35,000 nucleotides of DNA from an uncultured Bacteroidales bacterium (GTDB lineage Bacteria > Bacteroidota > Bacteroidia > Bacteroidales > Bacteroidaceae), in contig CACWIN010000014.1 in assembly GCA_902760965.1 (NCBI GenBank), positions 1 to 35,000 of the forward strand. Direction: 5' to 3'. A program made the translations under genes and the position numbers. The notes beneath the pieces were generated by a model that was given only the letters and a program-made list of their open reading frames with translations, had not been told where the DNA came from and ran no database searches. Of this stretch, positions 21,719 through 34,659 are shown in pieces. Within the stretch, counting starts at the first letter, position 1. Each line of letters starts with the position of its first letter.

Positions 21719-22420
21719 TCAAATAGTAAAGCATGCTCCAATCATTATTACCGAATAACTCCCAAACAACACGCAAAGAAACAAAAACACGTCGCTGCGC
21801 ATAAATCCCGAGCTGGTATATAAAATGCTCGAATTATGGACGTTCCAGCGGTCCCTGTCATTGCGTGTAACCAGGTTGTATATCCAGTATGTAAAACTAC
21901 CCAACAGGCATCCCACAATGGCACCAACAATGATGTCACCTAAAAAATGAACGCCTATATAAGTTCTTATTAATGAGTTAATTACGGCCCAAGCCAGGAC
22001 TGCAATGCTGAACCATTTGTCCTTTACAAGCAAAATGAACAGCGTTACAATGCCGAACGAATTGGCGGCATGCCCCGAAAAGAACCCGTAAAGACCTCCA
22101 CGATAGCCTTTTATGGTGTCAACCATATCAAGTATATATGGGTCACGAGTTGGTCTTAATCTGTGTACAAGCGGTTTAAATACCGATGACGACAGCTGGT
22201 CACACAGCACTATGGTAAGCACTACCATAAGCAGTACCAGCAACAGTCTTTTTGAATTTATGTTCCTGATTAACAGAAAAATAGCGGTTATTGCAAGAGG
22301 TATCCAGATTATGACTGAAGTATATAGACCGGCCACATTATCCCAATATAGGGAATTGCTGCCATTAATTGACAGCGTGGCCAATCTGTCTGTCTCTATG
22401 AGACCCTGTAATTCAGTCAT
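21719..22420 (-). CDS. PAP2-family membrane phosphatase
   Basis: The 233-residue protein has about six membrane helices and the three PAP2 motifs: K82xxxxxxRP (KPLVHRLRP), S115-G116-H117 (FFSGHAANS) and R152xxxxxH158xxxD162 (IRTYIGVHFLGD). These phosphatases act at the outer face of the inner membrane on lipid phosphates, such as undecaprenyl pyrophosphate, phosphatidylglycerol phosphate or lipid A. The substrate is not readable here. It starts 10 bases after batE and is cotranscribed with it, tying it to the envelope function of the Bat genes. After the third motif there is an additional polar loop and a final helix. Confidence 0.87.
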   Translation of the reverse strand: MTELQGLIETDRLATLSINGSNSLYWDNVAGLYTSVIIWIPLAITAIFLLIRNINSKRLLLVLLMVVLTIVLCDQLSSSVFKPLVHRLRPTRDPYILDMVDTIKGYRGGLYGFFSGHAANSFGIVTLFILLVKDKWFSIAVLAWAVINSLIRTYIGVHFLGDIIVGAIVGCLLGSFTYWIYNLVTRNDRDRWNVHNSSILYTSSGFMRSDVFLFLCVLFGSYSVIMIGACFTI

Positions 22421-22430
22421 TCATAACCGT

Positions 22431-23231
22431 TTAAATGATTTCCATTACGTTAACCGGTACCCAACCTGTATTTCCGTCCTCAAGCCTTATCTCCACCCAC
22501 TCTTTCATTGAAGAATCAAGGATCTTAACCTTGCGTCCTTCATGAATAATGAACAGGTCTGTACCGCCGCTACTGGGAGTACTCTTTACCGTTACGCTTG
22601 GCGACATTATAATTGCCGTGTCACGCTCCTTGAGATTTCCCATTTGCGTAGTAGCGAAGATAAAAGATAAAATGGATAAAAGCAAGAAAAACGCGCTAAA
22701 AGAAAAAGATATTTTTCTTATGCCTGATTTCTTGGAGAACAGCAACACTCCGGCCAAAAGAATGGTAATTGCAAACAAAACCACTGTCAGGACTGCCCAA
22801 CCGTTTACATCGAGCACTGCCAGAAGCTTTTTGAACCATACCACAATGAACAGCTGGTTAACGGGATTTACCTTGTCGACAGTCTTGGTGCGGGCCAGTT
22901 CCAGATTAAACCTTATATCGGGATCGGACGGATCAATAAGGTATGCGCGCTCATAGCATAAGATTGCCTTGGCAACCTCGTCACGCTTAAGCCAGCAGTT
23001 CCCCAGATTCATATATAAGGTGGCATTTACTCCCTGATTCTGGACAATCCATTCATACATGCTGATAGCTGTAAGATAATCACCTTGTATATATGCGCTG
23101 TCAGCCTCGGCCAACGTTGGTATAGCATCAATCTTTGTGGAATCGGCCACAAGACTCATCATTCCTTCACTTTCCTGTGCCATTCCCAGCACCGGAACCA
23201 TCAACAACAATAGAGCAAATATCTTTTTCAT
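22431..23231 (-). CDS. batE: BatE: TPR - membrane - SH3-like protein
   Basis: The 266-residue protein has a signal peptide (to about residue 19), TPR units (about 42-115, including NATLYMNLGNCWLKRDEVAKAILCYERAYLIDP), two membrane helices (about 145-165 and 173-193) and a C-terminal SH3-like domain (VTVKSTPSSGGTDLFIIHEGRKVKI to GWVPVNVMEII). This is the layout of BatE of the Bacteroides aerotolerance operon. In Bacteroides fragilis the Bat genes are linked to survival in oxygen, but the molecular job remains unclear. BatE is thought to join other Bat proteins in the periplasm. It follows batD by 7 bases. Confidence 0.88.
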   Translation of the reverse strand: MKKIFALLLLMVPVLGMAQESEGMMSLVADSTKIDAIPTLAEADSAYIQGDYLTAISMYEWIVQNQGVNATLYMNLGNCWLKRDEVAKAILCYERAYLIDPSDPDIRFNLELARTKTVDKVNPVNQLFIVVWFKKLLAVLDVNGWAVLTVVLFAITILLAGVLLFSKKSGIRKISFSFSAFFLLLSILSFIFATTQMGNLKERDTAIIMSPSVTVKSTPSSGGTDLFIIHEGRKVKILDSSMKEWVEIRLEDGNTGWVPVNVMEII

Positions 23232-23238
23232 ATTTCAA

Positions 23239-25113
23239 TCACTTTATTGAGTTTTCTATCTGACCGATCACTCCAACAGCCTGTTCGTAAATGCGGTCCA
23301 TACGTCCGGTGTCATCGCCGGGAGCAAAGCGGGCAAACTCACAGTCATCAAGCAGAGCCACTACCTGTTTTACAGGCTCCTCGGCAACGGCACGGCGTTT
23401 CAACTCAGACTGGATATTATCCTTTGAAAGCTCGGCCACCGGAATGGACAGCTTATCGCCAAAGTAACCAAGCAAAGCACGCATCATCTCGTCATAAAAC
23501 TCGTTCTTACGGTTCTCTTTCATCAGCTTACGGGCCACCTTGAGACGTTTTGAAGCTACCGAGCTGGCCTTCTTGACACGAACCTTGGCTATATTGGCAT
23601 TATCGGCAATACGTTTGCGTGAAATTACTACCAGTGCCAAAAGTATTACCAACGGCAATACCAAAAGCAGCCAGAAAAGCAGCGAACCAAAGAACTGCGT
23701 ACTGTCTGACTTAAGCGCAACTGGAGTGGCGTGGAAGCGGACATCCTGCCCTACATACTTAAGATCCTCCTTATTTACATATGATACCGATGTCTGGGAC
23801 TCACCCCCGCCCTGCCCTTTGGATACGTTCAGGGTATATTCATCGGTCTTGACGGTCTTGTACGATGCGCTCTTGGGATCAAAATACTGGAACTCAAGGG
23901 CAGGAATGGTATATTGGCCTGCATGACGCGGGATTACAAGGTACTCGTATACCTTGTTGCCTGTCTGACGGCCGCCCTTGATGGTATATTTGTTCTCAAC
24001 CTTTGGATCATATATGTCAAAGTCCTGCGGGAACTTTATCTCTGGGGTCTTTACCAACTTAAGGTTACCGGTACCGGACAGAATTACACGTACTGTAACA
24101 GCGTCGTTTGCGGTGACATCGGTGGAACTTATGGAGGAACTTATGTTAAAGTCACCAACGCCGCCGTAAAACGCACTGCTCTTGCCCTGAGGCAGAGGCT
24201 TGACGTTTATCTTTATGCTGCGTGTGGTAAGGTCCTTTTTAACCTCCACATAACGCGAGGAGTTAAAGAACATATCAAACACATCGTTGCTGCGGTTCTC
24301 AACGCGCTGAGCCACAACGCCCTCGAATGGCGTAGCCGGTATTTCAAGTTCGCCTGAATGCTGCGGGAACAGTACGTACTGGCTCCAGACCATTGTCTGA
24401 TAGTTACGGCCGTTGTAGTGCTCCAGATTGAACTCTTTCTGCTGAGGGAGTTCAACCTCCTGAACGTGACAGTTCTTAAGGTCCGGCATCTTGTTGCTCA
24501 TGGTCCTAAGGTCAACCGACGGCAACTTATATATCTTGAATGTGAGCAGCAGAGCCTCCTGCTCATAAACAGTTGTCTTGTCGACTGTTGCCAGCATAAA
24601 CAGCTCATCGGCACTGGATGCCGTCGATGTCTGGCCCGATGTTCTCTGGTTTGCAGACTGGCTGCTCCCCTGCCCTTGCCTGCTGCCCTGTTGCTGCTGT
24701 GAGGTCTGATCAGGCGGCAGTACCTTGATGGTCAGTCTGTTTGATGTAACCTGCTTGCCGCCAGCTGTTATCGTGGCGCCGTCAAGTTCAACATCGCCCT
24801 CCTGGGTTGCTACAACAACATAGGTATAAGTCATTGTATATGAACTTGATATCTGGCCGTTTATTATCTGGGTGCTGGACGATGTGGAGGTGCTTGGACC
24901 TGCCAGTACATTCAAGCTCTTCATGTCCGGAGCCCGGAACTCCTTGGAGTCACGGCTGTCAACCTTATATGTAATTCTGAAACGTTCACCAACAACCACC
25001 GCCTGAGGCGCCTGGGCAGTGAACGATACATCCTGGGCAATGGCTTGTATCCCGGCCATCATAAGCAGTATGACCGGCAATAACAGTCTTTTTGTCTTGT
25101 TTGATATATTCAT
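23239..25113 (-). CDS. batD: BatD, exported beta-rich protein with one membrane anchor
   Basis: With the ATG at 25113 the protein has 624 residues: a signal peptide (to about residue 26), then immunoglobulin-like beta domains. A Gln/Ser-rich linker (SQQQQGSRQGQGSSQSANQ) separates the first beta domain from the next. A transmembrane helix near residue 480 (LLFWLLLVLPLVILLALVVI) is followed by a cytoplasmic helical tail. This is the BatD (oxygen-tolerance, BatD-like) family. A TTG nine bases earlier is less likely than this ATG, which starts two bases past the batC stop. The cytoplasmic tail could contact the MoxR ATPase or VWA partners, though this is not shown. Confidence 0.88.
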   Translation of the reverse strand: MNISNKTKRLLLPVILLMMAGIQAIAQDVSFTAQAPQAVVVGERFRITYKVDSRDSKEFRAPDMKSLNVLAGPSTSTSSSTQIINGQISSSYTMTYTYVVVATQEGDVELDGATITAGGKQVTSNRLTIKVLPPDQTSQQQQGSRQGQGSSQSANQRTSGQTSTASSADELFMLATVDKTTVYEQEALLLTFKIYKLPSVDLRTMSNKMPDLKNCHVQEVELPQQKEFNLEHYNGRNYQTMVWSQYVLFPQHSGELEIPATPFEGVVAQRVENRSNDVFDMFFNSSRYVEVKKDLTTRSIKINVKPLPQGKSSAFYGGVGDFNISSSISSTDVTANDAVTVRVILSGTGNLKLVKTPEIKFPQDFDIYDPKVENKYTIKGGRQTGNKVYEYLVIPRHAGQYTIPALEFQYFDPKSASYKTVKTDEYTLNVSKGQGGGESQTSVSYVNKEDLKYVGQDVRFHATPVALKSDSTQFFGSLLFWLLLVLPLVILLALVVISRKRIADNANIAKVRVKKASSVASKRLKVARKLMKENRKNEFYDEMMRALLGYFGDKLSIPVAELSKDNIQSELKRRAVAEEPVKQVVALLDDCEFARFAPGDDTGRMDRIYEQAVGVIGQIENSIK

Positions 25114-25115
25114 GA

Positions 25116-25868
25116 TTACCAATCTTTTTCCAATGGTTTTTTAGGTTGAACCTTAAGCAGCTGTTCCTGAACACGCTCCTGGACATCTTTCTCGTCCTGC
25201 ATGGCAGCCTCCAGGATCTGCTCGGCATTCTCCTGCGACATATCCTGTTCCTGCTGCTCCTGCTGTTGCTGCTGCTGTTCTTCCTGTTGCTGTTCCTGCT
25301 CCTGCTGTTGCTGCTGGTCCTGCTGCTGATCCTGTTGTTGCTGCTGATCCTGCTGCTGATCCTGTTGCTGTTGCTGTTGCTGCTCTTTGAGCATTCGCTG
25401 GGCAAGAATCATATTGTATCGGGTTTCGTCATCGAGAGGATTGTTCCTTAGGGCCTCCTTATAAGATTCCACGGCCTTGTCATACTGCTCGCACATGTGA
25501 TAAACCACACCTGTGTTGTGATATGTCTTGGCCAGTTCCTCCTTGCAGCGTTCCAGTTCCCTGGCCGATGCCGACGGATTGTCCATGAGTTCCTTTTTAC
25601 GGCTCTCAAGAGCATTTGCAGTCTTGCGGTACTGCTCAACAGCCTCGTTGGGTTTTTGCTGTGCGGTATATGCATTGCCCAGATTGTAGTTTCCCTCATA
25701 CAGACTGGGATTCATGTCCACGGCCTTGAGATAGTTCTCCTCGGCCTTTATGAACAAGCTGTCCTGGAACATACGGTTGCCCTTGCGCACAAACGATCGG
25801 TCCGATCGCTGCGCATTTGCACCGGCTACGCATGCCGTCAATATACAAAACAACAATATCTTTTTCAT
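25116..25868 (-). CDS. batC: BatC-like TPR protein with a polyglutamine-rich segment
   Basis: The 250-residue protein has a signal peptide (to about residue 20) and three TPR-like units (about 25-150, including YEGNYNLGNAYTAQQKPNEAVEQYRKTANAL). Residues 162-208 are almost all Gln, with Asp at intervals and then Glu. The C-terminus is a charged helix. It matches BatC, whose TPRs are thought to bind other Bat proteins. The start overlaps the batB stop by four bases (ATGA). The Gln run is encoded by mixed CAG/CAA with CAG or GAC units and is prone to slippage, so its length may vary between strains. Confidence 0.85.
   Translation of the reverse strand: MKKILLFCILTACVAGANAQRSDRSFVRKGNRMFQDSLFIKAEENYLKAVDMNPSLYEGNYNLGNAYTAQQKPNEAVEQYRKTANALESRKKELMDNPSASARELERCKEELAKTYHNTGVVYHMCEQYDKAVESYKEALRNNPLDDETRYNMILAQRMLKEQQQQQQQDQQQDQQQQQDQQQDQQQQQEQEQQQEEQQQQQQEQQEQDMSQENAEQILEAAMQDEKDVQERVQEQLLKVQPKKPLEKDW
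25245..25385 (-). repeat. CAG/CAA-rich coding repeat in batC
   Basis: This encodes residues 162-208, blocks of Gln broken by Asp (QQQD units) and later Glu. The period is three to twelve bases, as expected for slippage. It is coding and in frame, not a CRISPR array. Confidence 0.85.
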
Positions 25869-26905
25869 TTTGATTTCTCCTCTTCTGTTTTGAACAGACT
25901 GAAATTCCTGAGCCTTGGGTTACGGCTTTCACATATGAATATCTCAAACAGCAGAATGAAAAGTATCATCCAGGCAATGATTGCAAACTGTTCGTCATAT
26001 TCGGTATATACAGTTGACTCAATGTCGGCCTTGGCCAGTTTGTCAATCTCCTTTTGGAGGGCCTTTTCGGCGGCATTTGAGTTGTCAACATAAAAATACG
26101 CACCCTTTCCGGCAGCAGCAATGCTACGGCACATCTCCTCATCAAGATGGGTAACTACCACATTGCCGTCCTTATCCTTACGGAACTCTCCTCTCCTTTC
26201 ACCGGGAATGGGCGAACCTGACGGCAGGCCAACACCCATAACATAAACCATATAGCCCTTCTCGGCTGCAGCCTGTGCCGCCTCAACGGCCCCACCCTCG
26301 TGGTTTTCGCCATCGGTAATCACAATGATTGCCTTGCCTACACCCTGGTTGGGCGTAAAGCTGCGGGTAGCCAGCTCAATGGCAGTCTTTATGTCGGTTC
26401 CCTGACGGGTAATAAGCGCCGGCGAGATTGTATTAAGGAATACCTTGGCCGATATAAAGTCGCTGGTTATGGGCAGCTGCACGAATGCATCGCCTGCAAA
26501 GACTATCAATCCAATCTTGTCATCCTTGAACTGGTCAACCAGATTGGATATGATACGCTTGGACTTTTCAAGACGGCTTGGAGTAACGTCATCGGCAAGC
26601 ATGGAGTTTGAAATATCCAGTGCTATCACAGTCTCTATACCCTTGCGGGTTACGGTCTCCTGCTTGGAACCGAACTGAGGTCTGGCCAGCAGGAAACAGC
26701 ACAGCGTGTATGCCGAAAACAGCAGCCAGAACTTTATGTTGGGACGGCTTACCGAGGCGTCGGGCATAAGGACTGACAGCAAATCGGCATCACCGTACTC
26801 AGCCAGTTTTTTCCTACGACGGATATTTGAGAATATATGTAGGGCTACCAGCACCGGAACCAGTGCCAGCAGATACAGATATTCGGGATTTGCAAATTTG
26901 AACAT
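25865..26905 (-). CDS. batB: BatB, membrane-anchored von Willebrand A protein
   Basis: The 346-residue protein has two N-terminal membrane helices (about 8-25 and 57-74) and a VWA domain with the metal-binding DxSxS motif as D97-I-S-N-S101. A third helix lies near the C-terminus (IIAWMILFILLFEIFI). The VWA domain faces the periplasm and probably binds a protein ligand through a divalent metal. BatA and BatB are known or thought to pair. A 43-base gap with a hexamer repeat separates it from batA. Confidence 0.9.
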   Translation of the reverse strand: MFKFANPEYLYLLALVPVLVALHIFSNIRRRKKLAEYGDADLLSVLMPDASVSRPNIKFWLLFSAYTLCCFLLARPQFGSKQETVTRKGIETVIALDISNSMLADDVTPSRLEKSKRIISNLVDQFKDDKIGLIVFAGDAFVQLPITSDFISAKVFLNTISPALITRQGTDIKTAIELATRSFTPNQGVGKAIIVITDGENHEGGAVEAAQAAAEKGYMVYVMGVGLPSGSPIPGERRGEFRKDKDGNVVVTHLDEEMCRSIAAAGKGAYFYVDNSNAAEKALQKEIDKLAKADIESTVYTEYDEQFAIIAWMILFILLFEIFICESRNPRLRNFSLFKTEEEKSK

Positions 26906-26922
26906 AGCGTTGTTTTTTAAAA

Positions 26923-26951
26923 CTTTGGCTTTGGCGTTGGCTTTGGCTTTA
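26923..26951. repeat. Hexamer repeat (AGCCAA units) between batA and batB
   Basis: Four to five near-copies of the six-base unit ttggct/ttggcg run through the batA stop codon (26949-26951) into the gap before batB. Slippage by non-multiples of three would change where batA ends. Confidence 0.6.
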
Positions 26952-27947
26952 GGGGATGGTCCTTAGGATGGTTTGCTTAAGCAGGACAGAAAGCAGCAGA
27001 CAGAGCAAGAGGGCAAGCGCAAGCGGCTGATATTCCTCCTGGTTCTTGCTGAACTCCTTGACCTGAAGCTTGGTCCTCTCCAGTTTGTCAATCTCCTCAT
27101 AAACCTCCTTTAGCTTGCTGTTGCTGGTGGCACGGTAATACTGGCCACTGGCAGTCTGTGCAATCTGCCGGAGCACGTTCTCATCAATCTCAACAGCCAC
27201 ATTCACATACTGCTTGCCAAAAGCGCCCTGTACGGGATATGGAGCTGTGCCATTGGTACCCACACCAATAGTATACACCCTGATGCCAAAACTCTTGGCC
27301 ATCTCGGCGGCAGTCATTGGCGAAATTTCGCCACGGTTATTGGAACCATCGGTTAACAATATGATAACCTTTGATTTAGCCTGACTGTCTTTAAGCCTGC
27401 TGATGGCGTTGGCAAGTCCCATTCCAATAGCGGTACCATCCTCAATTATGCCCTTTGCAGCAATATCACTGCTAACGTTCTGGAACATATTTAGCAGGAC
27501 AGCATGATCGACCGTCATGGGACACTGCGTAAATGCCTCACCGGCAAAGATGGTAAGACCTATATTGTCATTGGGACGTCCGTTTATGAACTCCGCGGCC
27601 ACCTGCTTGGCTGCCTCAAGACGGTTGGGTTTAAGGTCTTCGGCCAGCATACTGGTGGATACGTCAACACACAACATTATATCTATTCCTTCTATCTGGG
27701 TGTCCTGCCACCGGTCTGTTGACTGCGGACGCGCCAGAATGAGCGACAGCAGTACCAGTGCAGCCATTTCGAGTATAAAAGGAACATGAATAAGGTAATA
27801 TTTCCAGCTCTTACCCATTCCGCCGTACATCGATGTAGACGGCACGGACAGAGTAGCACGTCTCTTACGGCCTCTGAGCACATACCATATAACGCACGGT
27901 ATGACCAGAAGCATCAACAGGAGATATGCGCTGTTTGCAAATGTCAT
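26949..27947 (-). CDS. batA: BatA, membrane-anchored von Willebrand A protein
   Basis: The 332-residue protein has membrane helices at about 6-24 and 54-72, a VWA domain with DxSxS as D95-V-S-T-S99, and a final helix near residue 312. It is the paralogue of BatB, with the same MLAEDLKPNRLEAAKQ segment after the metal motif. Both are thought to form a periplasm-facing complex controlled by the MoxR ATPase. It starts 11 bases after the DUF4381-like gene. The stop codon lies inside a hexamer repeat. Confidence 0.9.
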   Translation of the reverse strand: MTFANSAYLLLMLLVIPCVIWYVLRGRKRRATLSVPSTSMYGGMGKSWKYYLIHVPFILEMAALVLLSLILARPQSTDRWQDTQIEGIDIMLCVDVSTSMLAEDLKPNRLEAAKQVAAEFINGRPNDNIGLTIFAGEAFTQCPMTVDHAVLLNMFQNVSSDIAAKGIIEDGTAIGMGLANAISRLKDSQAKSKVIILLTDGSNNRGEISPMTAAEMAKSFGIRVYTIGVGTNGTAPYPVQGAFGKQYVNVAVEIDENVLRQIAQTASGQYYRATSNSKLKEVYEEIDKLERTKLQVKEFSKNQEEYQPLALALLLCLLLSVLLKQTILRTIP

Positions 27948-27958
27948 GGCTCAGTCAA

Positions 27959-29038
27959 TTAAAAGAACAGATAATACAACTTTAAAACCGCCAGAACCAG
28001 GAACGCCGCTCCTGCCACCGATATTGCCACACCGGTCACAAGCAGTGCCAAACGGGCTCCCTTGCTGCGTTTCATCTCTATAACAGTCTCCTCTTCACGG
28101 GGTTGCAGCTCCGATTCCGGAACCTCAACCTTGGTTACGTTCACAAACTCAAGCGCACTTACCAGATTGCGGTCATTCTCGTTAAGCATTGGCTTGAACT
28201 TGGCAAACTTTACCATATCCGATGTTGAGAGCAGATCCCTAAGCTCACTGAGAGATTCCTTGTCCTGGCTCTCCTCAAGCCGTTCCAGAATCTCATACGA
28301 TGTCATTTCGGTTGCATTAAACCCAAACCTGTCATTGATATACTCGCGCAGGATATCGGTTAGCTGGGTGTAATATGCCTTGGCATCTTCGTTGTGCGGA
28401 CCTCCGGCCTGACGCAGATTCTCAATCTGCGATATTGCCCTTATGTGCGCAGGCACTTTGGGTTCAATCCTGACCTTTCTTATTATAGGCTTGTCATCAC
28501 GATAGCGAACAAACAGATAAACTGCTATCACTATGGCAATTATGGCCAAAAGTCCGTAAAGGATAAGCCCCCTCACCTCATAGAATCGGACAGGAGTTTT
28601 CATATTCTCCTTGGGGCCGAAAATCTGTGTTTCCTGACCCTCGGGGATATCGTATGTCATGAACGCCAGTGCCAGACGGTTGGACTGATATTCAACCCCA
28701 TCAACCTGTACGGGCAGATAAGGTATGTATATCAGCGTGGAGTCAAAACAGGTAACGGTATAGCTGCGTTTTACAGTCATACGCTGGCCGTTGTTTACAT
28801 ACTGGGTATCGGTGACAACAGGCGGCAATATTTCCAGTCCCTTGACAATTGTGTCACGGTAAACCGGGAATACAATATCCTGTCCTGCGTCACAGGTAAC
28901 CTCCAGATGCAGTCCGGTCTGCTGCCCTACCCACATCATCATGGAATCCACCTCGGCCTGAACGACAACGTTCTGCGCCGATACCAATGACACCGGTAAA
29001 AGACTCAATAAGAACAGAAATATGGCGAATCTTTTCAT
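27959..29038 (-). CDS. Exported DUF4381-like protein of the Bat operon
   Basis: The 359-residue protein has a signal peptide (to about residue 22) and a beta-rich periplasmic domain (about 23-150). A membrane helix lies near 158-178, then a cytoplasmic helical part (about 195-290, including YYTQLTDILREYINDRFGF), and a last helix near the C-terminus. The layout fits the DUF4381-like proteins that sit between DUF58 and batA in this operon type. It may link the periplasmic VWA pair to the cytoplasmic MoxR/DUF58 proteins. The name is tentative, since the family is known mainly by context. Confidence 0.7.
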   Translation of the reverse strand: MKRFAIFLFLLSLLPVSLVSAQNVVVQAEVDSMMMWVGQQTGLHLEVTCDAGQDIVFPVYRDTIVKGLEILPPVVTDTQYVNNGQRMTVKRSYTVTCFDSTLIYIPYLPVQVDGVEYQSNRLALAFMTYDIPEGQETQIFGPKENMKTPVRFYEVRGLILYGLLAIIAIVIAVYLFVRYRDDKPIIRKVRIEPKVPAHIRAISQIENLRQAGGPHNEDAKAYYTQLTDILREYINDRFGFNATEMTSYEILERLEESQDKESLSELRDLLSTSDMVKFAKFKPMLNENDRNLVSALEFVNVTKVEVPESELQPREEETVIEMKRSKGARLALLVTGVAISVAGAAFLVLAVLKLYYLFF

Positions 29039-29040
29039 TT

Positions 29041-29066
29041 AATTCTCAATTTTCAATTCTCAATTT
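29041..29066. repeat. Direct repeat of aattctcaattt between two Bat genes
   Basis: aattctcaattt occurs at 29041-29052 and 29055-29066, a period of 14, and runs over the stop codon of the DUF58 gene. The same kind of sequence is, from memory, scattered between genes in many Bacteroidetes genomes. Confidence 0.6.
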
Positions 29067-29929
29067 CTCTTGGCGAACAGTCCCATAAGTCCCTTTACAT
29101 AGTCCTGATCGGTCCGGATAGCCACGGAGTCAACACGGCTACGGGTAAGATAATCCTTGACACGTTCAGTATTCTCTACGAACCATTTGTGATGAGCCTC
29201 ACGTACACGGGCCGAAGAGGTGTCAATGTACATCTCCTGCCCTGTCTCGGAATCCAACAGTTTCATGAGACCTACATCGGGCAGTTCCTCCATACGCCTG
29301 TCATATACCCGTATTGCCACAATATCGTGCTTTCGGTTGGCTATGCTCAAGGCGTTACGGAAATCATGGGAGTCAATAAAGTCGCTCAAAAGGAAAGCTG
29401 TACAGCGTTTCTTAACCGCACCTGTAAGGAACTCCAACGGAACGGTAATATTGGTTGCATTACTCTCCGGCTGAAAATCAAGCAGTTCACGAATCAGATA
29501 CAGAATGTGCTTGCGGCCTTTCTGGGGCGGAATGAACTTTTCTATCCGGTCACTAAAGAACAGCAAACCCACCTTATCATTATTCTCAATGGCTGCAAAT
29601 GCCAGTGTAGCCGCAATCTCGGTAACCATTTCACGCTTCATCATGACGCTGGTTCCAAAATTAAGGCTGTTTGACACATCGACCATAAGCATAACCGTAA
29701 GTTCACGCTCCTCCTCAAAGACCTTTGAATAGGGTTTGTTCATACGGGCGGTAACATTCCAGTCAATATCGCGGGGTTCGTCGCCATACTGGTATTCACG
29801 CACCTCGCTGAATGCCATACCACGTCCCTTGAACGCGGTATGGTACTGACCGGCAAAAATATTACTGGACAGACCTCGTGTCTTGATCTCAATTTTCCGG
29901 ACCTTTGCTATCAGTTCACTTGTTTCCAT
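29060..29929 (-). CDS. DUF58-domain protein of the MoxR/Bat operon
   Basis: The 289-residue cytoplasmic protein shows the DUF58 signature GDEPRDIDWNVTARMNKPYSKVFEEERE (about 50-77). A VWA-like fold follows with a DxSxS-like VDVSNS near residue 84. DUF58 proteins almost always accompany MoxR ATPases and are thought to be their adaptors or substrates. It follows moxR by 26 bases. The stop codon is inside a short direct repeat, so the C-terminal residues may differ among strains. Confidence 0.88.
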   Translation of the reverse strand: METSELIAKVRKIEIKTRGLSSNIFAGQYHTAFKGRGMAFSEVREYQYGDEPRDIDWNVTARMNKPYSKVFEEERELTVMLMVDVSNSLNFGTSVMMKREMVTEIAATLAFAAIENNDKVGLLFFSDRIEKFIPPQKGRKHILYLIRELLDFQPESNATNITVPLEFLTGAVKKRCTAFLLSDFIDSHDFRNALSIANRKHDIVAIRVYDRRMEELPDVGLMKLLDSETGQEMYIDTSSARVREAHHKWFVENTERVKDYLTRSRVDSVAIRTDQDYVKGLMGLFAKRN

Positions 29930-29955
29930 ATTAAACTGATTGTAAGGAGGTTAAA

Positions 29956-30951
29956 TCAAGGTACTTCGACCTTGTTCAAGATACGGCTTACAAGCTCGTC
30001 CTGTGTTACGTTTGTGGCCTCGGCCTCGTATGTAAGACCAATACGGTGACGCAGTACATCGTGAGCAATGGCGCGTACATCCTCGGGAACCACATAGCCG
30101 CGACGCTTTATGAATGCGTACGAACGGGCGGCAAGAGCCAGATTTATTGATGCACGGGGTGAACCTCCAAACGAGATAAGTTCCTTTATCTCCTTAAGAC
30201 CGTACTTTTCGGGGTAACGGGTTGCAAATACTATATCGGCAATATACTGCTCAATCTTTTCGTCAAGATATACCATATCGACCACCTTGCGGGCCTCAAT
30301 GATATCGTCTGTGCTCATTACGGGCTTTACGGTGCCTATCTCGTGATGTATCTGCTGGTGGATAATCTTCTTTTCCTCCTCAATCTTGGGATAGTCAATG
30401 ACAGCCTTAAGCATAAAACGGTCAACCTGAGCCTCAGGAAGCGGATATGTACCTTCCTGTTCTATCGGGTTCTGGGTTGCCATTACCAGGAACGGCTTAG
30501 GAAGCTTGAAAGTTTCGCCTCCAAGTGTTACCTGACGCTCCTGCATGGCCTCAAGCAATGCGCTCTGAACCTTGGCCGGAGCACGGTTAATTTCATCGGC
30601 CAATATAAAGTTGGCAAATACAGGTCCCTTTTTAGGCAGGAAGGTTTCGTCCTTCTGGCTGTATATCATGGTACCTACCACGTCGGCAGGCAGCAAGTCA
30701 GGGGTAAACTGTATTCGGTTGAAACTTGCGTCAATCAGCGATGCCAGGGTCTTTATGGCAAGTGTCTTGGCCAAACCGGGAACACCTTCAAGAAGTATGT
30801 GTCCATCGGAAAGAAGACCAATAAGCAAAGATTCTACAAGATGTTTCTGTCCCACAATAACCTGATCCATTCCGGCCATCAGGTTGGTAACGAATGCGCT
30901 CTGTTTTTCAATACGCTCATTCAGTTCCCTAATGTCTACATTTTCACTCAT
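29956..30951 (-). CDS. moxR: MoxR-family AAA+ ATPase
   Basis: The 331-residue protein is a complete MoxR ATPase: Walker A GVPGLAKT (56-63), Walker B ILADE (116-120) followed by INRAPAKVQSALLEAMQE, sensor 1 ATQNPIEQEGTYPLPEAQ, and the C-terminal lid. MoxR proteins act as chaperones that remodel or load metal into partners carrying VWA domains, here probably DUF58, BatA and BatB. It is the first gene of the Bat operon, with a promoter about 55 bases upstream. Confidence 0.94.
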   Translation of the reverse strand: MSENVDIRELNERIEKQSAFVTNLMAGMDQVIVGQKHLVESLLIGLLSDGHILLEGVPGLAKTLAIKTLASLIDASFNRIQFTPDLLPADVVGTMIYSQKDETFLPKKGPVFANFILADEINRAPAKVQSALLEAMQERQVTLGGETFKLPKPFLVMATQNPIEQEGTYPLPEAQVDRFMLKAVIDYPKIEEEKKIIHQQIHHEIGTVKPVMSTDDIIEARKVVDMVYLDEKIEQYIADIVFATRYPEKYGLKEIKELISFGGSPRASINLALAARSYAFIKRRGYVVPEDVRAIAHDVLRHRIGLTYEAEATNVTQDELVSRILNKVEVP

Positions 30952-31085: not shown

Positions 31086-32087
31086 TCACTTTACAGCAAG
31101 CCTGGGTATATTGATAGTGCTGTTTTCAATCAATTGGCTGGCTGCGGTCAATTTATTGTATCGGGCTATATAAGGCCACAGTTTCTTGCTTCCGTAATAC
31201 CTGAATGCAAGTTTTACCATGGATTCGCCTTTCTGTACCTTATGAGCTGCCAACGTGCCTGTTATCCTAAAGTTTACGGTGTCAGCCTCGGTAAAGAGCG
31301 CCAGTTTCTTGTCCTGATCGGCTTTTGACAGCACGATTGTCTGTACGGTGTCAGGTGCTACTACAGGCTGAATTGTTGTAGTATCAGCAGGTATTGTCAC
31401 CACCTCCACCTGCTCAACAACAGGATTAGGTTTGATTTCCTGGGGCTTGGGAGCTCTTACTGGAGTCTGGACCGGTTCCACCAGAGTTATGCCGGGAAAC
31501 TTGTCATTTATAAACTCAGTAACCTTATCGCCAACTACAGGCCATAACAGATACAGGGCGACTGCAGCAATAAGCACCAATGAGAAAATCCAAACCAGCA
31601 GCCGTAAAAAGAACCTGGTAATACCTTTCTGGGTAATATCCTTAACCTGAGGCGTTTTGATTTCCTCTACGGGCTCGGGAGCGACGGTCTCTTCGGGCTC
31701 ATCGGCACTGTTGGATTCAGGGGCAGCAGTGGTTGTCTCCACATCGCCAAGCTTATCGGCCTGTTCAGGAGTAATCTCAACTATCTCAAAAGCCGCAAAC
31801 GGCTTGTTAATGCGCTCCTTGAGCTCTGCATCGGGGGTAAAGGATATTTTCTGGTGACCCTCTATGGTAAAGCGTTCGCCGGTATTAACGTTAACGCTCT
31901 CGCGGTCCTCCATCTGGAGCAGCTTGAATGTGCCGAATCCTTTAACCTTGACAAGGCCCTCCTGGAGTACTGTGTTTGATATTATATCAAAGAATGTCTT
32001 GACAAACTGCTCCGATGCACTTTTGGACATTCCACCCTGCTGTGACAGCATGTCGGCCAGCTGTGAAAGATTTATCTTTTTATCCAT
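31086..32087 (-). CDS. HU-like domain fused to a transmembrane helix and a LysM-like domain
   Basis: The 333-residue protein has three parts. Residues 1-95 are an HU/IHF-type DNA-binding fold (VKVKGFGTFKLLQMEDRESVNVNTGERFTI, then an arm and helix). Residues 105-155 are acidic and disordered. A single membrane helix lies at about 160-183 (FLRLLVWIFSLVLIAAVALYLLW), followed by a Pro/Val-rich periplasmic spacer. Residues about 281-330 look like LysM (HKVQKGESMVKLAFRYYGSKKLWPYIARYNK to STINIPRL). There is no signal peptide. With Arg and Lys before the helix and acidic residues further upstream, the N-terminus should stay in the cytoplasm and the C-terminus face the wall. The protein could tie DNA to peptidoglycan. 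It is the last gene of the ftsY operon, 9 bases after the small HU gene. Confidence 0.85.
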   Translation of the reverse strand: MDKKINLSQLADMLSQQGGMSKSASEQFVKTFFDIISNTVLQEGLVKVKGFGTFKLLQMEDRESVNVNTGERFTIEGHQKISFTPDAELKERINKPFAAFEIVEITPEQADKLGDVETTTAAPESNSADEPEETVAPEPVEEIKTPQVKDITQKGITRFFLRLLVWIFSLVLIAAVALYLLWPVVGDKVTEFINDKFPGITLVEPVQTPVRAPKPQEIKPNPVVEQVEVVTIPADTTTIQPVVAPDTVQTIVLSKADQDKKLALFTEADTVNFRITGTLAAHKVQKGESMVKLAFRYYGSKKLWPYIARYNKLTAASQLIENSTINIPRLAVK

Positions 32088-32096
32088 AGCGCTGCC

Positions 32097-32369
32097 TTAT
32101 TTAAGTTTGTCCTTTAAAAGTGAACTTGGCTTGTATGTAAGCACAAGTTTTGGCGGAATAAGCATGCGTACGCCGGTTGTAGGATTGACCGATACGCGCT
32201 CGTTCTTTTTTTTGACCTCAAGAACACCAAATCCTGAAAGACTTACGGAATCGCCGTTGCTCCACAGATTTTCCATAACCTCAATCAAGGCCTGAACCTG
32301 ACTGGCTGTCTTTTCCGGCGTCAATTGGCATTTGCCGGATAGTTCTGTCAAAAACTGCTTGTTATTCAT
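32097..32369 (-). CDS. HU-family DNA-binding protein
   Basis: The 90-residue protein is a single HU/IHF domain: N-terminal helices (NNKQFLTELSGKCQLTPEKT), the beta saddle GFGVLEVKKKNERVSVNPTTG, the arm VRMLIPPKLVLTYKPS and a C-terminal helix. The arm has IPP where classical HU has the intercalating Pro, so it should bind and bend DNA. It lies between rimO (15 bases after it) and the HU-LysM gene (9 bases before it). It may form homodimers or pair with the HU domain of its neighbour. Confidence 0.9.
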   Translation of the reverse strand: MNNKQFLTELSGKCQLTPEKTASQVQALIEVMENLWSNGDSVSLSGFGVLEVKKKNERVSVNPTTGVRMLIPPKLVLTYKPSSLLKDKLK

Positions 32370-32384: not shown

Positions 32385-33680
32385 TTACTCTACTTTTCCA
32401 TACAGGTCAAAGGCATCGGCCTCGGTAACCCTGACAATTACAAACCGGCCTATGGGGAGCTCCCGGTCAGCTTTAATAAGCACCTCCGGATCAACCTCGG
32501 GCGAATCAAACTCAGTGCGGCCTATGTAATAATCGCCCTCCAGACGGTCAATCATGGTCTTGAACAAGCCTCCCACCTTGGATTCGCTTATCTGAGCCGA
32601 AATATCCTGCTGCACACGCATAAGGCGTGACAGACGGGCCTGCTTTACATCGTCAGTGATATCGTCCTTATAGTGGATGGCCGAATATGTGCCGTCAACC
32701 TGACAGTATGCAAAGGCACCCATGCGCTCAAAACGCTGCTCCTTAACAAAATCCACAAGTTGGTTAAAGTCATCATCGGTCTCACCCGGAAAACCTACCA
32801 TGAGAGTGGTACGCAAGTGTATTCCGGGAACCTCCTGACGGATTTTTGCAAGCAAATCACGGGTTTCCTGAGCCGTAATATTCCTGTGCATGCGCTTTAA
32901 TACAGGGTCACTGATATGCTGAAGCGCAATATCCATATACTTGCACACATTGTCACGCTGACGCATTACCGGCAGCAGGTCCAATGGAAAGTTATTGGGA
33001 TAGCCGTAATGAAGGCGCAGCCACTCCACTCCCGGAATGTCTGACAAACGCTGTACAAGCTCTGCGATGGTTGACTTGTGAGCAACGTCAGTTCCGTAAT
33101 AAGTGAGGTCCTGAGCTATGAGCTGGATCTCCTTTACGCCTTTTGCCACAAGCTTGCGGGCCTCGTCAAGAATGTCATCCTGGCTGCGTGAACGGTATTT
33201 GCCGGTCATAAGCGGTATTGCGCAGTATGCACAGCCGCGGTTGCACCCTTCGGCAATCTTTAGATACGCATAATGAGGCGGAGTTGTAATTACACGGTCG
33301 TTCTCAATCTCCCCGTGCCATTGCTGCCCCATCTCCTTTATTATGCCGTTCCAGTCAAACTTTCCGTACCAGCCGTCAACCTCAGGGATTTCGGCCATAA
33401 GCTCCTTATGGAACTTTTGCGACAGGCATCCCATTACGAACACACGCCCTACCTTTCCGGTTTTTTTTAGTTGGCAGCATTCCAGAATCATATTGATTGA
33501 TTCCTCCTGCGCATCGCCAATAAAGCCGCATGTATTGATAATTACAGTCTCGGCGCTAACCTTGTCGGGATCATGTCTCACCTTAATGCCGTTAGCTCGG
33601 AATTGAGCTATAAGTTTCTCAGAATCAACAAGATTCTTAGAGCATCCTAAAGTGATTATATCCACACTGCCACGCCTCAT
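32385..33680 (-). CDS. rimO: RimO, ribosomal protein uS12 methylthiotransferase
   Basis: With the ATG at 33680 the protein has 431 residues. The N-terminal MTTase domain has three cysteines (C13, C51, C85) for one 4Fe-4S cluster. The radical-SAM core has C146xxxC150xxC153 (EGCNRGCAYCAIPLM), and the end is a TRAM domain (about 370-431). It adds a methylthio group to an aspartate of uS12 near the decoding site. The lack of tRNA-modifying MiaB features and the LGCSKNLVDSE start fit RimO. A TTG two codons upstream overlaps the ftsY stop, but the ATG is preferred. It directly follows ftsY. Confidence 0.95.
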   Translation of the reverse strand: MRRGSVDIITLGCSKNLVDSEKLIAQFRANGIKVRHDPDKVSAETVIINTCGFIGDAQEESINMILECCQLKKTGKVGRVFVMGCLSQKFHKELMAEIPEVDGWYGKFDWNGIIKEMGQQWHGEIENDRVITTPPHYAYLKIAEGCNRGCAYCAIPLMTGKYRSRSQDDILDEARKLVAKGVKEIQLIAQDLTYYGTDVAHKSTIAELVQRLSDIPGVEWLRLHYGYPNNFPLDLLPVMRQRDNVCKYMDIALQHISDPVLKRMHRNITAQETRDLLAKIRQEVPGIHLRTTLMVGFPGETDDDFNQLVDFVKEQRFERMGAFAYCQVDGTYSAIHYKDDITDDVKQARLSRLMRVQQDISAQISESKVGGLFKTMIDRLEGDYYIGRTEFDSPEVDPEVLIKADRELPIGRFVIVRVTEADAFDLYGKVE

Positions 33681-33682
33681 GT

Positions 33683-34642
33683 TCAATCCTGTTTAAATAG
33701 GGAATCCACAAATTCGGTCTTGTTGAACACCTGGAGATTATCTATTGCTTCACCCAGGCCAACGTACTTTACAGGTACCTTGAACTGGTCCGATATGCCA
33801 ATTACAACACCTCCCTTGGCTGTTCCGTCAAGCTTGGTTATGGCCAATTGGGTAACTTTTGTAGCCAGTGTGAACTGCTTGGCCTGCTCAAAGGCATTCT
33901 GGCCTGTGGAACCGTCAAGAACCAGCAGAACATCGTCAGGGGCACCCTCAACAACCTTGTTCATCACGTTGCGTATCTTGGTGAGCTCGTTCATAAGGCC
34001 AACCTTGTTGTGCAGACGTCCGGCCGTATCAATCAGAACCACGTCGGCGCCATTAGCCACGGCATGACTGAGCGTATCATATGCAACCGATGCGGGATCG
34101 GAACCCATTTCCTGCCGTATTACCGGCACGTCAACCCTGCGTCCCCACTCCTGCAGCTGCTCAATGGCTGCGGCACGGAAAGTATCAGCAGCGCCAAGCA
34201 CCACCTTAAGGCCGCGTTTTTTGAACTGGTACGCCAGCTTGCCTATGGTTGTAGTCTTGCCTACTCCGTTTACGCCAACCACAAGTACCACATACGGCTT
34301 GCGGTCCGACGGAACGCTGAACGGCTCGGATTTGTCGTCCGGGTTATTCTCAACCAGCAGGGCCGATATCTCTTCCCTAAGAATGCCGTTCAATTCGGAC
34401 GTACCCATGTATTTGTCACGTGCAACACGCTCCTGGATGCGTTTAATTATCTTAAGGGTGGTCTCTACTCCAACATCGGACGTAATAAGAACCTCCTCAA
34501 GATTGTCCAGTACCTCGTCATCGACAGTGGACTTGCCGGCTACTGCACGGGCTATCTTGGAGAATACGCTGGACTTGGTTTTTTCCAACCCTTTGTCCAG
34601 TACTTCTTTCTTTTCCTTACTAAAAAATGAAAACAATCCCAT
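33683..34642 (-). CDS. ftsY: FtsY, signal recognition particle receptor
   Basis: With the ATG at 34642 (MGLFSFFSKEKKEVLDKGLEKT) the protein has 319 residues. A helical N domain is followed by the SRP GTPase: GVNGVGKTTTIGKLA, DTFRAAAIEQL, DTAGRLHN and TKLDGTAKGG. FtsY brings SRP-bound ribosomes to the Sec translocon. It lacks the long acidic A domain of E. coli FtsY, as usual in Bacteroidetes, and has an amphipathic N-terminal helix instead. A longer frame from 34690 crosses the promoter and is rejected. It heads the ftsY - rimO - HU - HU-LysM operon. Confidence 0.96.
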   Translation of the reverse strand: MGLFSFFSKEKKEVLDKGLEKTKSSVFSKIARAVAGKSTVDDEVLDNLEEVLITSDVGVETTLKIIKRIQERVARDKYMGTSELNGILREEISALLVENNPDDKSEPFSVPSDRKPYVVLVVGVNGVGKTTTIGKLAYQFKKRGLKVVLGAADTFRAAAIEQLQEWGRRVDVPVIRQEMGSDPASVAYDTLSHAVANGADVVLIDTAGRLHNKVGLMNELTKIRNVMNKVVEGAPDDVLLVLDGSTGQNAFEQAKQFTLATKVTQLAITKLDGTAKGGVVIGISDQFKVPVKYVGLGEAIDNLQVFNKTEFVDSLFKQD

Positions 34643-34659
34643 ATGTTCGGTGAATACGG

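Follow-up and report, generated by a model that had tools for sequence, protein, structure and literature searches.

The window, by which we mean the whole 35,000-nucleotide stretch of an uncultured Bacteroidales bacterium analyzed here, carries a gene whose product joins an HU-type domain, a single membrane helix and a LysM-type domain. Such a chain raises the question of whether DNA could be tied to the cell wall, as a preliminary description of the locus had suggested. To our knowledge, the way in which the nucleoid is held in Bacteroidales cells has been little studied. No treatment of HU-LysM proteins was found in the available portions of the literature searched; what is probably the closest paper, by Burroughs and others, reportedly dealt with HU/IHF clades and appeared in Cell Cycle in 2017. 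The fusion gene is termed FUS here and the plain HU gene beside it HUp.

Architecture, locus and distribution of the fusion gene

The domain anatomy of FUS (Table 1) is firm, and the fusion claimed in the preliminary description was found to be real, with an open frame that contains an HU domain recognized by Pfam and by modelling, one helix and a LysM fold. Residues 6-94 match the Pfam Bac_DNA_binding family (73 bits against a cut-off of 22.4; E-value in Table 1), and all 81 members of the FUS family match it at E 0.05; the 81 sequences are the 80 best relatives and the window protein, here and below. In the AlphaFold2 model, which was built on the 81 aligned sequences, the helices and strands of residues 7-98 are ordered as in HU, with ten-residue mean pLDDT values of 83-97, low confidence is confined to the two linkers, and the membrane-type helix runs on to residue 196. 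IHF and HU chains were the top PDB fold matches (Foldseek; best E 4.0e-8), which bears out the HU-like fold proposed for the N-terminus.

Conservation within the FUS family varies between the parts of the protein, with values of 0.74 for the arm, 0.64 for the HU domain, 0.56 for the LysM domain and 0.17-0.31 for the linkers and the helix. The family motif N-[KRQ]-P-[FY]-x-x-F, at 0.76, outscores the HU domain that it follows and possibly makes a dimer contact or a membrane-side contact.

Table 1. Positions of the genes and protein parts discussed, in window coordinates
Feature	Position	Strand	Basis
FUS, HU-TM-LysM fusion gene, 333 aa	31086..32087	minus	Open frame with ATG start; homologues
HU/IHF domain of FUS, residues 6-96	31800..32072	minus	Pfam 2.4e-20; structure model; IHF/HU fold match
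Beta-ribbon arm of FUS, residues 58-80; conserved R62, S64, V67, R72, H78, K80	31848..31916	minus	Column counts; ungapped IHF-alpha alignment
Family motif N-[KRQ]-P-[FY]-x-x-F after the HU fold, residues 94-100	31788..31808	minus	81/81 sequences
Acidic, weakly conserved linker of FUS, residues 101-155, predicted cytoplasmic	31623..31787	minus	Model; conservation
Single membrane helix of FUS, residues 156-180	31548..31622	minus	Model; one helix in 80/80 relatives
Variable linker of FUS, residues 181-272, predicted periplasmic	31272..31547	minus	Model; conservation
LysM-type domain of FUS, residues 273-332	31092..31271	minus	Pfam and profile matches; models; fold search
HUp, plain HU/IHF-like gene, 90 aa, probable dimer partner	32097..32369	minus	Pfam 2e-21; adjacent in 80/80; fused in three genomes
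rimO-type radical SAM gene, upstream, conserved	32385..33686	minus	Pfam, name an interpretation; 80/80 loci
ftsY-type SRP GTPase gene, upstream, conserved	33683..34645	minus	Pfam, name an interpretation; 78/80 loci
MoxR-type ATPase gene, downstream, start of the Bat cluster	29956..30951	minus	Pfam; downstream in 63/80 loci

The preliminary description had placed FUS directly after a plain HU gene without naming the strand; this holds on the minus strand, where a gap of 9 bp separates HUp from FUS. Locus counts in this study refer to the best 80, that is the closest ones, of at least 541 relatives found in a scan of named genomes. The order rimO, HUp and FUS on one strand occurs in all 80 of these loci, and the spacing between HUp and FUS is 60 nt or less, or the two genes overlap, in 79 of them, the exception being L111 with 291 nt. 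Since the HU domain, the one helix and the gene order recur in every one of the 80 loci and a LysM-type tail in 79, the architecture is not a product of chance. An HU gene after rimO was not found in 17 of 20 rimO regions from genomes of the Bacteroidales order and class. Three of these genomes (G048, G152 and G098) carry the HUp-FUS pair elsewhere.

Downstream of FUS in the window lie MoxR, a DUF58 gene and a BatA/BatD-type cluster. The Bat cluster as a whole occupies 21722-30951 on the minus strand (PAP2, SH3/TPR, BatD, TPR, two BatA-type vWA genes, DUF58 and MoxR) and includes a membrane protein at 27962-29038 that has no Pfam match. Farther away, between 1251 and 19919, Pfam identified GH95, metallo-beta-lactamase fold, Y-family polymerase, GH10, AMP-binding, patatin, HSP90, ClpB/ClpC-type and GyrA/ParC-type genes.

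In 63 of the 80 loci, FUS is followed by MoxR in the same orientation, and in G048 and G152, where the HUp-FUS pair is away from rimO, the pair still stands beside MoxR. This neighbourhood would suit an envelope-sensing regulator in which LysM senses the state of the wall and the HU pair alters local genes such as the MoxR/Bat cluster; ToxR and CadC are known examples of membrane regulators that carry a periplasmic sensor in the same chain. However, DNA bending by HU/IHF domains is at most loosely specific, and in 17 of the 80 loci (five of these with less than 1.5 kb downstream) the DNA examined contains no Bat cluster; we consider a regulator of this kind quite improbable.

Bacteroides heparinolyticus, B. 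fluxus, B. luti and Phocaeicola coprocola are among the sources of the best 80 relatives. Twenty-one of 25 genomes from the window's genus, its own included, contain the whole of FUS; one (G001) has the HU domain and helix without LysM, two show a LysM end alone at a contig edge, and in one, which is 62% complete, FUS was not found. The preliminary description had supposed that the architecture recurs in Bacteroidales, and the domain survey agrees: HU and LysM matches share one frame in at least 26 of 148 genomes of the order, rising to at least 28 genomes from 18 families when the tandem genes of G106 and G156 described below are included. A survey of 119 genomes of the class at E 1e-6, a strict cut-off that could hide diverged HU-LysM proteins, gave four HU-to-LysM matches, all in the window's order; a further 47 genomes gave hits to HU or LysM alone. 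Long LysM frames in G210, G276 and G247 were tried as HU-LysM proteins of other orders and rejected, as they are PP2C phosphatases.

The HU domains of HUp and FUS

The best PDB sequence matches of both HUp and FUS are IHF, and HUp aligns to IHF through the arm without a gap, as does the full-length arm of FUS to IHF-alpha. Column counts for the FUS arm gave R62 and S64 in 81/81 sequences, R72 and H78 in 76/81, and K80 in 74/81 with arginine in the remaining seven. The HU part was not found to lack DNA-binding residues across homologues, its arm being among the most conserved parts of the protein, which is consistent with the DNA binding proposed for it in the preliminary description. In HU and IHF the arm-tip proline intercalates in DNA, and the roles of the conserved arm residues are likewise drawn from these proteins. 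Position 67 at the arm tip of FUS is valine or isoleucine in all 81 sequences, the proline of HU and IHF being absent, whereas HUp has its tip proline (P63) and R58 in 81/81, followed by a P-P-K stretch (P72 in 81, P73 in 80 and K74 in 80).

The two domains also differ in charge. Averaged over the 81 pairs, HUp carries a net charge of +5.1 and the HU domain of FUS one of +0.2, with +5 and 0 for the window's own pair. In the window genome, which is 81% complete, three HU domains exceed the cut-off, namely HUp, FUS and one encoded elsewhere with a charge of +5. Judged from their sequences, the HU domains of HUp and FUS thus differ in a complementary way, which is newly found here. With a near-neutral charge and no arm-tip proline, FUS by itself would be expected to bind DNA weakly, and charge and proline would come from HUp; DNA binding by the pair is probable.

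A second line of evidence comes from single-gene relatives. In three genomes from two families (G106, G156 and G053), one gene between rimO and MoxR, of 458, 643 or 754 aa, encodes two HU domains followed by a helix and a LysM-type tail. The first domains of these proteins (L206, L207 and L208) score 23.5, 54.4 and 51.1 bits with a HUp model against 4.8, 10.7 and 12.3 with a FUS model, while the second domains show the reverse, with 12.7, 37.1 and 43.9 bits for the FUS model against 4.8, 12.3 and 10.7 for the HUp model. In a tree of 60 HU domains, which has few columns and long branches for L206, the three second domains form a clade with FUS-type domains (support 100/99) and the first domains group with HUp (support 95/63). 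L206 is the weak case, its first domain reaching 18.5 bits in Pfam, which is under the cut-off. Pfam LysM gave no match at E 0.1 in any of the three proteins, the tails being detected by the family model.

These natural HUp-FUS fusions, newly found here, lend indirect support to a HUp-FUS dimer. The preliminary description had named the adjacent HU gene as a possible dimer partner, and the pairing has held up well, as HUp lies upstream in 80/80 loci and is fused with the FUS HU domain in the three genomes. Given the pairing, the complementary residues and the natural fusion, a HUp-FUS heterodimer is likely.

In the tandem proteins, the arm of the second HU domain is either cut short or departs from the usual form. 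DNA contact by the FUS-type domain may therefore be dispensable, and these degraded arms speak against a fixed DNA role for the second domain. They would fit the idea that the HU fold of FUS has turned into a protein-protein module and tethers no DNA, a role that has been proposed for CCDC81-type HU domains. The charge of about zero and the lost proline of FUS point the same way, and the armless HU-CCDC81 proteins compared below show that membrane-anchored HU domains can do without arms. Against this, the arm of FUS is full length, gapless relative to IHF and invariant at R62 and S64, and HUp keeps both its proline and its charge. We judge a purely protein-binding role to be unlikely.

Membrane topology and the LysM-type tail

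Each of the 80 relatives has one membrane-type hydropathy segment. Lysine and arginine are more numerous in the 15 residues before the helix than after it in 68 of the 80, equal in 7 and fewer in 5, which leaves 12 relatives without the charge bias (sign test 3e-15, treating kin as independent). The inner-side linker of the family is acidic, with 21% glutamate, and the outer-side linker has a median of 83.5 residues. There is no N-terminal signal and the HU domain comes first, so that, together with the one helix and its charge bias, the HU domain is predicted to lie inside and the LysM domain outside. A cytoplasmic HU domain and a periplasmic LysM domain are probable on these grounds, which agrees with the topology put forward in the preliminary description.

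The LysM-like C-terminus proposed earlier was likewise recovered, by several routes. The Pfam LysM score of the window protein is under the curated cut-off (14.7 against 20.9 bits); at E 0.05, Pfam LysM hits 48 of the 81 sequences of the family. When all 81 were combined into a profile, it matched LysM proteins of solved structure, namely Ecp6 at 4.4e-12 and Kbp at 6.1e-9. The tail folds as strand-helix-helix-strand in the whole-protein AlphaFold2 model (residues 273-332) and again when the last 88 residues are modelled alone (mean pLDDT 84). Its Foldseek matches are nearly all LysM-carrying proteins, with a probability of 1.00 for the top ones; none reached E 0.001, the best being 5.7e-3, and the LysM assignment therefore rests on fold probability and the profile match.

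What the tail binds is less certain. A LysM-type domain need not bind the wall: Kbp, one of the profile matches, is a potassium-binding protein. The HU domain and helix persist without LysM in two relatives (L022, which is G001 of the window's genus, and L127:6001-6660); both proteins end soon after the helix, and no LysM frame was found downstream of either gene. Residues of the LysM motif also vary, W304 for example being present in 55/81 sequences. The HUp-FUS pair might accordingly be anchored in the membrane with no role at the wall, its LysM being a periplasmic fold kept for stability, sorting or another ligand. However, a LysM-type tail is retained in 79 of the 80 loci, as detected with a model whose alignment includes those same proteins, and its conservation is near that of the HU domain and far above that of the linkers. 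We give a pair without a wall role a low probability. Wall binding by the LysM domain of FUS, although not universal among its relatives, is probable.

Related systems and the proposed role

Envelope anchors that carry HU-type domains are already known. The closest known proteins to FUS are those of Bacteroidota that combine HU-CCDC81_bac_1 and bac_2 with a membrane helix and SPOR (PF18174, PF18175 and PF05036). Among them both HU domains exceed the cut-off in all six proteins scanned and SPOR in five of the six, and one helix is predicted in 11 of 12. They share with HUp and FUS two HU-type domains, one helix and a peptidoglycan-type binding domain. They differ in that SPOR takes the place of LysM, both HU domains are in one chain, and the long arm is missing (the models have 59 and 70 positions, and the Bac_DNA_binding match covers the first half), whereas the arm of FUS is full length. 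In the window FUS, Pfam gave 13.5 bits for HU-CCDC81_bac_2 against a cut-off of 35, no bac_1 match up to E 1 and no SPOR match. The arm-bearing, IHF-like pair with LysM thus differs from the known design at both working ends.

HU-CCDC81_bac_2 exceeds the cut-off in 115 of the 148 genomes of the order and in none of 37 genomes of the window's genus, eight of which are at least 90% complete, an apparent loss of HU-CCDC81-SPOR in this genus. The window genome has two SPOR frames, of 162 and 152 aa, away from FUS. Mutual exclusion of the two systems was considered and rejected: among the matches listed, 21 of the 28 HU-LysM genomes also have bac_2 over the cut-off, so that HU-LysM and HU-CCDC81-SPOR coexist and one does not simply replace the other.

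IHF alpha/beta resembles HUp/FUS in its fold, its full-length arms and its two different subunits; unlike IHF, FUS has a membrane helix and LysM and no arm-tip proline. Another order of the class has proteins with a soluble N-terminal domain, a helix and a C-terminal LysM related to that of FUS, in which the N-terminal domain is a phosphatase instead of HU. Such PP2C-type phosphatases with a helix and LysM were observed at L230:2201-3652, L231:160-1581 and L232:1024-2514, and their tails are close to that of FUS.

In action, the nearest worked-out analogue of FUS is HubP, with LysM outside, one helix and the chromosome held inside. The polar landmark proteins HubP/FimV have a periplasmic LysM, a single helix and, on the cytoplasmic side, a part that keeps the chromosome in place; the action of HubP runs through ParA1, and polar targeting requires the LysM (PMC8789113; PMC12918733). 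FUS has a helix and a LysM-type domain as HubP/FimV does, according to the models and the fold search. The domain order of HubP/FimV is opposite to that of FUS, acidic repeats and a TPR/FimV domain stand where FUS has HU, and the link to DNA is indirect. No TPR/FimV match was found in FUS in Pfam up to E 1.

The reading that we favour, at slightly less than an even chance, is that FUS is the membrane-anchored half of an IHF-like heterodimer with HUp, linking DNA with the membrane and, probably, with the wall. HUp, encoded just upstream, would pair with FUS so that both HU domains face the cytoplasm. The positive charge would come mainly from HUp, as would the intercalating proline, and FUS would add another arm with a different tuning. 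Once bound to DNA, the dimer would be kept at the inner membrane by the acidic linker and single helix of FUS, and in the periplasm the flexible linker with its LysM would tie this anchor to peptidoglycan. The outcome would be a DNA-to-membrane tether, and a DNA-to-wall tether where LysM is retained.

In the DNA-to-wall reading of the preliminary description, the architecture, the probable topology, the partner and the recurrence have stood, and the tether itself is what these would suggest. The near-neutral HU domain, the valine or isoleucine at the arm tip, the two relatives without LysM and the degraded tandem arms count against it, and we put the combined tether at roughly even chances. 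It is somewhat unlikely that HUp and FUS form an obligate heterodimer acting as a split, wall-anchored IHF through which selected parts of the chromosome are bonded directly to peptidoglycan, and that HU-CCDC81-SPOR is a further system, perhaps at the septum, that the genus has lost.

As the membrane-anchored, IHF-like pair favoured here, HUp and FUS are a concrete, deletable two-gene candidate for placing a DNA bender at the inner membrane with a reach to the wall, and thereby may have a role in chromosome placement. The pair has stayed at a single locus in many gut species. Two parallel designs exist in one order, an arm-bearing HU pair with LysM and an armless HU pair with SPOR, and whether DNA is held by anchor-borne HU domains can therefore be tested by comparison.
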